From assembly GCA_002840245.1 (NCBI GenBank), contig PHAA01000030.1, positions 1 through 63,599 on the forward strand: a stretch of 63,599 bases of DNA, read 5' to 3'. A program made the translations under genes and the position numbers. This document shows positions 9,150 to 62,499 of this stretch, piece after piece. This DNA comes from Firmicutes bacterium HGW-Firmicutes-15. GTDB taxonomy: Bacteria > Bacillota > Syntrophomonadia > Syntrophomonadales > Syntrophomonadaceae. The stretch's first letter is position 1; each line of letters begins with the position of its first letter. A model generated the notes under the pieces. That model searched no databases and was not told the origin of the DNA. It saw only the letters and a list, made by a program, of their open reading frames with translations.

Positions 9150-9205
9150 AGAAGTGCTTAGTAAAAAGACCGGAGTAAATGACTTTATTACTGGATAGTC
9201 CCTTA
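9150..9205 (-). repeat. Dispersed repeat, fragment A (3' end only)
   Basis: Contains the conserved AAAAAGACCGGAGTAAATGA block at 9163-9182 and a terminal TTTATTACTGGATAGTCCCTTA-like end (to 9205), matching the right ends at 16352, 48174 and 61894. The left end is missing or unrecognisable. It ends about 20 bases before the -10 of the next promoter. Strand is arbitrary. Confidence 0.65.
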
Positions 9206-9223
9206 GGTGCTTATTAAGGTCTG

Positions 9224-16158: not shown

Positions 16159-16195
16159 GGGTAGTTGCTGACATTTTGCCAGAACTACCCTTCTT
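16159..16195 (+). terminator. Terminator of phasin/MaoC operon
   Basis: GGGTAGTT (16159-16166) pairs with AACTACCC (16183-16190), with further CTG/CAG pairing inside, then TTCTT. It directly precedes the dispersed repeat copy B. Confidence 0.65.
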
Positions 16196-16353
16196 AGGGG
16201 CTATCAATAAATAAATGAGACAGAATAGGCCGAGGATTTTTCGTGCTAGACAAGGCTTAAAGTGCAGTCATACTGGACGTATTTCAAGCTTTGAGAACAA
16301 AGGAGCGCGAAAAAGACCGGAGTAAATGACTGATTTATTTATTGATAGCCCCT
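16196..16353. repeat. Dispersed repeat, copy B: complete, 21-bp perfect terminal inverted repeats
   Basis: A 158-base non-coding element. The left arm 16196-16216 (AGGGGCTATCAATAAATAAA+T) is the exact reverse complement of the right arm 16333-16353. Inside, GATTTTTCGTGCT (near 16237) pairs imperfectly with AGCGCGAAAAAG (near 16302), so the whole unit can fold as a long hairpin. The blocks GTGCTAGACAAGG and AAAAAGACCGGAGTAAATGA recur in other copies. It has the form of a MITE or long REP-like element. No open reading frame and no clear target-site duplication were found. Confidence 0.85.
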
Positions 16354-16377
16354 TAATATAGTGAAAGGAGGGGGCGG

Positions 16378-47694: not shown

Positions 47695-48126
47695 ATGGGC
47701 GTGATATTGGTAGTTTTGGCAGGAATAATATGCCTCGTATATACCAGCTATTTTATTAGAATCATGAGAGGTGATCCCCAAGGTTTTGAGGTTCAAATGA
47801 TCAAAGCCTTGGCTGAATGGATTATCACTAAAGGTGCGGTGAGCAAACGCTATATCTGGGCTATGTTCTTCCTTTCGCTATTGGTAGAAATGCTATATTT
47901 CTGGCTGACCATAGTATTGATTAACAATCCGGTTATGATAGCTTTGACAGCCCTTTTCATAGCTGTAGAGAGTTATCATCTTATTAGAATCGCAGTGAGT
48001 CTGAACCGTTTCTTTATTGGCAAGGCCCTGCTCAGCCATATATTTAACTGGCGGGTGGAGAGGGCCAGTGCCATCTTCTTCTTTACCCATTCCTTCCTGG
48101 TCTTGGCCATCCTTATTTTTTTCTAG
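47695..48126 (+). CDS. Four-helix membrane protein, unknown
   Basis: 143 residues with about four membrane segments: VILVVLAGIICLVYTSYFIR, AMFFLSLLVEMLYFWLTIVL, PVMIALTALFIAVESYHLIR and IFFFTHSFLVLAILIFF. The start at ATG 47695 follows GGAAGGCGGTGG; the frame is open back to 47644. I do not recognise the family. Last gene of the MoxR operon; it ends 3 bases before the dispersed repeat fragment C. Confidence 0.65.
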   Translation: MGVILVVLAGIICLVYTSYFIRIMRGDPQGFEVQMIKALAEWIITKGAVSKRYIWAMFFLSLLVEMLYFWLTIVLINNPVMIALTALFIAVESYHLIRIAVSLNRFFIGKALLSHIFNWRVERASAIFFFTHSFLVLAILIFF

Positions 48127-48129
48127 CCT

Positions 48130-48175
48130 AAAAAAGACCGGAGTAAATGACTGGTTTATTTATTGAAAGTCCCTA
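48130..48175. repeat. Dispersed repeat, fragment C (right end)
   Basis: AAAAAAGACCGGAGTAAATG through TTTATTTATTGAAAGTCCCTA, matching the right ends of copies A, B and D. The left part is absent. Its last three bases are the stop codon (TAG, minus strand) of the P-type ATPase gene. Confidence 0.8.
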
Positions 48176-50679: not shown

Positions 50680-50735
50680 CCCCTTTATTATATAAATATA
50701 TGAACGTCTGTTCATATATTTATATAATAAAGGGG
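50680..50735 (-). promoter_or_regulatory. cadC operator/promoter: 26-bp-arm perfect inverted repeat
   Basis: Arms 50680-50705 and 50710-50735 are exact reverse complements around GTCT. The centre ATGAAC-GTCT-GTTCAT is a CzrA/CadC-type operator. On the minus strand TGAACA, 16 bases, TATAAT (50687-50692) forms a promoter, and the near arm contains the AAAGGGG of the ribosome binding site. Confidence 0.8.
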
Positions 50736-61430: not shown

Positions 61431-61533
61431 CCAAAAACCCCCCTTATTTTATAGCTATAAGAAAACTATAGTTGGTATGCGGACTATCTGTCAACCAATT
61501 ATATTCTCTTTTTATCTGCATGAAATGACTTTT

Positions 61534-61894
61534 GGGGCTATTAAGGAATAAACAAGGCGGAATACGCCTAGGATTTATCGTGCTAGACAAGGCGTCACCC
61601 TTCGGGCACTACTAGTGCTCCCACCCTTCGGGTACCACTGATGCATCCTTGCGGATGCCAATAAGGTTGCTAGCGGTCGCTAATAATGTTGCAAAGCATG
61701 GTAATACTGGAGGTATTATCGCGTTTTAATAACGAAGTATAGTGCGAAAAAGACCGGAGTCAATGGTCGCTCCTTGCCATGGATGGCAACGGCAGCTCTT
61801 TGCCATCCATGGCAACGCTGCACTAGTCCTTCCGTGGACGTCGCGACATTAGTCCATCCTTGGACGTCACTAGTTTATTTCTTGATGGTCCCTT
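61534..61894. repeat. Dispersed repeat, copy D: expanded, carrying about ten short hairpins
   Basis: The left end GGGGCTATTAAGGAATAAA and right end TTTATTTCTTGATGGTCCCT match the family; GTGCTAGACAAGG and AAAAAGACCGGAGT are kept. Between them and after them lie short stems: CCC-TTC-GGG (61598-61606, 61624-61632), GCATCC/GGATGC (61643-61658), TAGCG/CGCTA (61671-61682), TAATAC/GTATTA (61702-61718), two mirror forms of TTGCCAT/ATGGCAA (61774-61789, 61800-61815) and two GTCC-type stems (61826-61839, 61852-61865). The rest of 61431-61533 has nothing recognised. Confidence 0.8.
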
Positions 61895-61911
61895 ATATAA
61901 TCCAGAAATAA

Positions 61912-61946
61912 AAAAGAGTTTGGTATTATAAATACCAAACTCTTTT
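61912..61946 (-). terminator. Terminator (bidirectional) after second zinc-ribbon gene
   Basis: A 16-bp perfect stem AAAAGAGTTTGGTATT / AATACCAAACTCTTTT with loop ATA, A and T runs at both ends. Confidence 0.9.
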
Positions 61947-62452: not shown

Positions 62453-62499
62453 AGGGGCTGCCAAGGAATAAATTACTAATGTATTTTTTGAAAGTCCCT
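62453..62499. repeat. Dispersed repeat, copy E: internally deleted
   Basis: AGGGGCTGCCAAGGAATAAA at the left and TTTTTTGAAAGTCCCT at the right with almost nothing between: only the terminal inverted repeats remain. It ends 22 bases before the ABC-F start codon. Confidence 0.7.

Follow-up and report, generated by a model that had tools for sequence, protein, structure and literature searches.

Small hairpin-forming repeats have been described from several kinds of genome. RPEs are short palindromic selfish DNA of about 150 bp, scattered in Rickettsia and often lying in frame in functional genes (PMC10969869, PMC3733652). The REP/BIME/RAYT systems and the CGTC-tagged REPs (PMC3733652) are likewise small hairpin repeats, some lying within genes, those for DNA repair among them. 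Mitochondrial double-hairpin elements, sponge RHEs and yeast GC clusters (PMC2800124, PMC4478555) are hairpins of about 40-50 bp that vary in copy number, merge and form tandem arrays. Cyanobacterial SDRs (Elhai et al. 2008, as cited in PMC3733652) are very small mobile repeats of bacteria, described in PMC2884548 as about 20 bp long. How elements that are too small to encode anything, and that are without transposon ends, come to move has been a question for RPEs, SDRs and the mitochondrial hairpins.

We analysed a stretch of 63,599 nucleotides (the window) from Firmicutes bacterium HGW-Firmicutes-15, in which one repeat copy, copy D, carries a dense series of hairpins. We read copy D as a composite of non-autonomous mobile DNA, in which a 160-bp base element holds nested insertions of two hairpin units, A (48 bp) and B (51 bp), and we give this reading a probability of roughly 0.88. 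By the defining features tested, A and B do not place in the RPE, REP, SDR or mitochondrial families; the kind of element is itself known (PMC10969869, PMC3733652, PMC2800124, PMC4478555). Like RPEs, A lies in frame inside protein genes, here MutL and AddA as compared with relatives and Tex and CheA as compared with solved homologues. RPEs are set apart by their descriptions, being rickettsial and about three times as long, whereas A and B belong to Syntrophomonadaceae, nest in themselves and insert exactly and without duplication. A shares with REPs its small hairpins and its presence in genes, those of DNA repair included. The end of B, ..GGACGTC, recalls the CGTC tag, but the terminal stem of B is 4 bp long as against 8-9 bp and uses the first C of that tag. 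In comparison with GTAG REP/RAYT systems, neither unit has GTAG at a palindrome end, the units have two or more hairpins, and no associated Y1 gene was found (0 of 23 loci). One group of yeast GC clusters starts with ACTCCTTCGGGGT, much like the ACCCTTCGGGT of A, a resemblance in structure and one short motif that may be convergence; the yeast clusters are organellar and flanked by AG or ACT direct repeats, unlike A and B. The SDRs come from a different phylum. In the literature searched there was no description of such elements for Syntrophomonas.

Structure of copy D

The hairpins were confirmed in the window sequence at 61534-61894. Folded as single-stranded DNA, the stretch reaches -65.9 kcal/mol, compared with -45.6 +/- 3.9 kcal/mol for dinucleotide shuffles (z = -5.16), and none of 100 shuffles was as low. 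The hairpin array noticed in a preliminary description is real, as are its two mirror-form stems, TTGCCATGGATGGCAA (61774-61789) and TTGCCATCCATGGCAA (61800-61815), its two GTCC..GGAC stems and the linkers ACTAG, ACTGATG, AATAAGGT and AATAATGT. Its count of about ten distinct hairpins resolves differently, into two repeated units, A and B, each present twice with one nested in the other, together with stems of the base element. Every hairpin of copy D belongs to A, to B or to this MITE-like element.

When positions 61520-61905 were searched against the 3.47 Mb of the same genome (84 contigs), 104 matches were obtained. Since their ends fall repeatedly on the same query positions, the modules are discrete, and breakpoints that recur this sharply place the hairpin stretch far from chance. 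Copy D spans 61534-61892 and consists of the 160-bp inverted-repeat element with two insertions at exact points, A at GGCGTC/AAAGCG and B at AAATG/ACTAG (the slash marks the insertion point), each interrupted by a second unit of its own kind. Its parts, and the intact reference copy, are as follows.

16194 to 16355, plus strand: intact base element holding neither A nor B, the empty reference copy in the window, by sequence comparison
61534 to 61596, plus strand: left segment of the MITE-like base element with terminal repeat GGGGCTATTAAGGAATAAA; 83% identity to the intact copy (16194-16353), dozens of genomic copies
61597 to 61622, plus strand: 5' part of unit A1 (26 bp), starting exactly at the GGCGTC/AAAGCG point of intact base elements
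61623 to 61670, plus strand: unit A2 (48 bp), nested in A1 at CTCCC/TAGCGG without target duplication; full-length model match, E = 5e-20
61671 to 61692, plus strand: 3' part of unit A1 (22 bp), completing its 48 bp
61693 to 61765, plus strand: middle segment of the base element; the match to query 173-246 recurs in many copies
61766 to 61791, plus strand: 5' part of unit B1, with the GTCGC stem strand and the TTGCCAT-GG-ATGGCAA hairpin, starting at the AAATG/ACTAG point of intact base elements
61792 to 61842, plus strand: unit B2 (51 bp, two hairpins), nested in B1; full-length model match, E = 1.9e-15
61843 to 61868, plus strand: 3' part of unit B1, with the GCGAC stem strand and the GTCC..GGAC hairpin, ending in GACGTC, with an extra G at the nesting junction; alignment and model match
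61869 to 61892, plus strand: right segment of the base element with terminal repeat TTTATTTCTTGATGGTCCC; genome matches

The three base parts sum to 160 bp and the two parts of A1 to 48 bp. Those of B1 sum to 52 bp as against 51, which is the one extra G. Uninterrupted A1-type copies are held by several other base elements, and uninterrupted B1-type copies lie at C30:91093, C15:10095, C31:75125 and C81:2918.

The base element, of about 160 bp, has 19-bp terminal inverted repeats, no coding capacity and dozens of genomic matches. Of 25 complete copies, about 10, as counted by eye, have the same 3 bp, TTA or TAA, at either end. It is like MITEs in its terminal inverted repeats, its lack of a gene and its high copy number. 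A and B differ from MITEs in having neither terminal inverted repeats nor target duplication, or for A a duplication of 1 bp (C) at most; A begins with ACCC and ends with TTGC, and B begins with GCAGC or GTCGC and ends with GACGTC.

Units A and B and their insertion sites

Both units show stem covariation. Among 15 aligned B sequences the outer stem covaries, with GTCGC paired to GCGAC in some and GCAGC paired to GCTGC in others, and the covariation exceeds that of all shuffles; among 21 aligned A sequences all five pairs of the second stem have changed on both sides. Search models built from these two alignments found at least 94 A matches and at least 24 full B units in the same genome. Of the A units, 69 were read in detail, and 49 of these are 48 bp long. 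They occupy 40 distinct contexts, 36 of which have C at position -1 (p about 5e-20). No tRNA was found beside the unit at C79:78585.

Empty base elements read straight through the two points used in copy D, and filled copies have exactly one A or one B in between. Further A sites in the base element are ATC/AAGG, TCC/AGTAT and CGC/TAATA, each exact in paralogous empty sites, and a further B site is CGAA/AAATCC. At the latter the five A bases of the empty site appear as two plus three in filled copies, so that no target was duplicated on insertion. For A, an element of 47 bp that duplicates 1 bp, a C, would look the same as one without duplication, since the unit ends in C and the preceding base is almost always C. 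A units are nested in A at CTCCC/TAGCGG, at CACTAC/TGGTG or in the loop of the first hairpin. Nested B occurs in two B subtypes, with one extra G in each, and a collapsed nested B at C37:28444 resembles recombination between copies. Since many copies lie in base elements that are shared by MITE descent, independent insertion events are fewer than copies. Both this shared descent and the extra G at the nested-B junction count against our reading of copy D.

Distribution and gain or loss between species

In a search of 151 genomes B was found in 18 and A in 43, nearly all of them in the same family, Syntrophomonadaceae. By pattern scan, the B core is carried by Syntrophomonas zehnderi OL-4, by S. 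wolfei subsp. methylbutyratica and by MAGs of Syntrophomonadaceae, Peptococcaceae and Gracilibacter. Two B-core matches were in contigs binned to Mariniphaga and Fermentimonas MAGs, and these contigs may be misbinned. Head-to-tail tandem arrays of A occur in S. zehnderi (G007) and in three other genomes (G031, G039 and G050), and perfect 48-bp periods are seen in relatives.

In the sister genome, Syntrophomonas sp. STD2_151 (G006), the ortholog of the base element at C81:2735-2992 lies on two contig ends that overlap by exactly 127 bases; the flanks are 86.5% identical over 1.8 kb and 90% identical over 1.6 kb. The ortholog holds exactly one extra 48-bp A, nested in the A at CTCCC/TAGCGG, just where the window copy has its own nested A. 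In the same-genus genome G003 both neighbour genes of the window locus and the promoter are kept and the whole element is absent.

These comparisons strongly support the preliminary suggestion that hairpin cassettes were gained stepwise: the units occur genome-wide, with many second occurrences of those in copy D, empty and filled sites agree to the base, and an orthologous element in a related species differs in size by one 48-bp unit. The accompanying idea, that a small repeat type has inserted into copies of itself, is equally well borne out by A nested in A and B nested in B.

One related genome (G026), presumably the S. wolfei type genome, is a single contig of 2,936,195 bp that starts at dnaA and has 134 A matches. 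It contains a recurrent composite, a pair of equally oriented A units spaced by about 125 bp, for example at 530240/530366, 655391/655518, 676720/676845 and 1148570/1148706, which apparently moves as one repeat.

A units inside genes

Long ORFs that resemble MutL, AddA, AddB, CheA, ParA, TldD and Tex hold A units in frame, as 16 codons; the ORFs were named by sequence resemblance, and MutL, ParA, TldD, CheA and Tex also match solved homologues. For MutL in the window's own genome (G000), removal of the 48 bp restores ..PGNGN-LRDTV.., the uninterrupted form of the aligned relatives. The exception is G006, where an A-like insert of 57 bp occupies this point. Solved MutL proteins are without the 16 residues. 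AddA has two sites. At one, only G000 has the unit; it is missing from G006, which is 86% identical overall, and from the other relatives, of which G002 and G005 carry unrelated sequence there. At the other, G000 and G006 hold different A arrays and most other relatives have none. The solved homologues of Tex and CheA are without the inserted residues, and the ParA and TldD alignments show a break or gap at the unit, which is less clean than for Tex and CheA.

By inspection, ten units are clearly or probably intragenic and all are 48 bp, while none of 20 units of other lengths lies well inside a conserved ORF, which fits the survival of frame-keeping copies. In G026 one of the 134 units is intragenic, in a doubtful ORF, and most units of that genome measure 47 or 53 bp, lengths not divisible by three; this would fit the purging of frameshifting copies. 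With their in-frame copies, mutL, addA, addB, cheA, parA, tldD and tex offer a natural experiment in the tolerance of proteins to insertions of 16 residues. At G000:C68:59286-66723 (L120, L124, L127 and L324) the adjacent addB and addA genes hold several A units, and mutL holds one; in other bacteria, too, repair genes have been reported as frequent sites of intragenic REPs (PMC3733652).

How the units may move

Unit boundaries, empty and filled sites, base preference, nesting, tandem arrays, cross-species gain or loss and in-frame insertion can all be read directly from the sequences. The history that we read from them begins with the 160-bp terminal-inverted-repeat element as the base of copy D; one A and one B inserted into it, followed by a further A into A and a further B into B. 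Insertion of the units is precise, occurs in either orientation and duplicates no target, and A lands directly 3' of a C. The targets include intergenic DNA, other mobile elements, the units themselves and, for the 48-bp A, genes in frame.

As for the agent, we tentatively suggest that an HUH/Y1-like or other strand-transfer enzyme might act on the units in trans, most likely while they are single-stranded hairpins, a proposal we hold at rather less than even odds. Y1 (HUH) enzymes insert without duplication beside a short target, and for that reason they are the first suspects. IS200/IS605-derived elements insert 3' of a fixed short target without duplication and have hairpins near both ends. 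The units could conceivably be of this kind, with no duplication, C at -1 in 36 of 40 contexts and hairpins present, but a larger relative that encodes a transposase was not found. No transposase was linked to the units in these genomes: at 23 Y1-transposase loci, taken from the window's genome and from relatives, neither A nor B lies within about 1.5 kb, and no Y1 match was obtained in two drafts rich in A, G011 (at least 34 units) and G014 (at least 20). Among the partial A matches, which adjoin nested units, no gene was seen with half an A on either side, as would mark an autonomous partner. In G026, 65 of 103 unit clusters are oriented one way with respect to the replichore (65 to 38, Fisher p = 0.0096), a modest and confounded bias that points towards the Y1 route but is only a hint, since copies within composite repeats are not independent.

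Spread could also need no dedicated enzyme, if units multiplied by slippage, template switching or gene conversion at hairpins, with arrays growing locally and being copied by recombination and MITE transposition. The perfect 48-bp tandem A arrays in relatives, the many A and B copies in the same MITE context and the recombination-like collapse at C37:28444 would all suit such a process. However, it has to account for 40 unrelated contexts, genes among them, where a full-length unit stands singly and with exact ends, and for the strong C at -1, and the precise insertions into mutL and addA are without obvious local homology and hard to obtain without specific strand transfer. We therefore consider it unlikely. 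We think it quite improbable that the hairpins were transcribed and the RNAs copied back by a reverse transcriptase of the retron or group II type: an RNA intermediate would suit compact covarying hairpins, and similar proposals have been made for yeast mitochondrial GC clusters (PMC4478555), but neither a promoter nor an intron nor a reverse transcriptase was seen in connection with the units, and there is no matching Rfam family, the window having no covariance model match at gathering thresholds.

Under the preferred reading of nested mobile units, A and B could be founding members of an undescribed class of ultrashort bacterial mobile elements, a proposition we place just short of an even bet. 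Its members would be hairpins of about 50 bases that an unrecognised enzyme inserts as single strands directly after a short target and without duplication. Their lengths, divisible by three, would let them survive in frame, as 16 codons, in housekeeping proteins, and they would nest in themselves and form head-to-tail arrays. The mechanism is testable because there are two families readable base by base, with empty and nested sites, cross-species gain or loss, and culturable relatives in S. zehnderi and S. wolfei.

Locus context

Copy D is flanked by the following features.

61465 to 61494, minus strand: acyl-CoA dehydrogenase promoter, TTGACA-18-TATAGT; conserved in G003, which is without copy D
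61912 to 61946, minus strand: intrinsic terminator of the zinc-ribbon gene, a 16-bp perfect stem and terminator-like scan match

Lying between this terminator and this promoter, copy D is probably not transcribed from either gene and is best read as inert, probably without function for the host. A functional RNA, or an array of 3' hairpins that stabilises mRNA, would fit the strong folding and the intergenic position. We regard it as very improbable, given that copy D lies beyond the upstream gene's terminator and before the next promoter, that the orthologous intergenic region of G003 keeps the promoter without the array, and that the same units occur inside coding genes and other repeats. 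The mRNA 3' protection first proposed is thus unlikely, and nothing was found in favour of a protein-binding scaffold. That copy D is an assembly artefact or collapsed repeat is scarcely credible. The draft assembly does consist of 84 contigs, and contigs are often broken at repeats, but independently assembled genomes, one of them a single contig, show the same units and the same nesting.

Other repeats were observed along the way. A base element at G000:C67:86542-86868 (L077) has a run of several partly nested A units and is probably the most complex A array in the G000 genome. In the window, a 45-bp base-element remnant, little more than the two terminal repeats, lies at 62454-62498 just upstream of an ABC-F gene, and partial base-element relatives are present at 9157-9206 and 48125-48174. 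Positions 901-962 and 2161-2222 form a 62-bp direct repeat (76% identity, 1260 bp apart), and at 50680-50735 a loop of 4 bases joins the perfectly paired 26-bp arms of an inverted repeat (CCCCTTTATTATATAAATATATGAAC) that is far longer than typical terminators.
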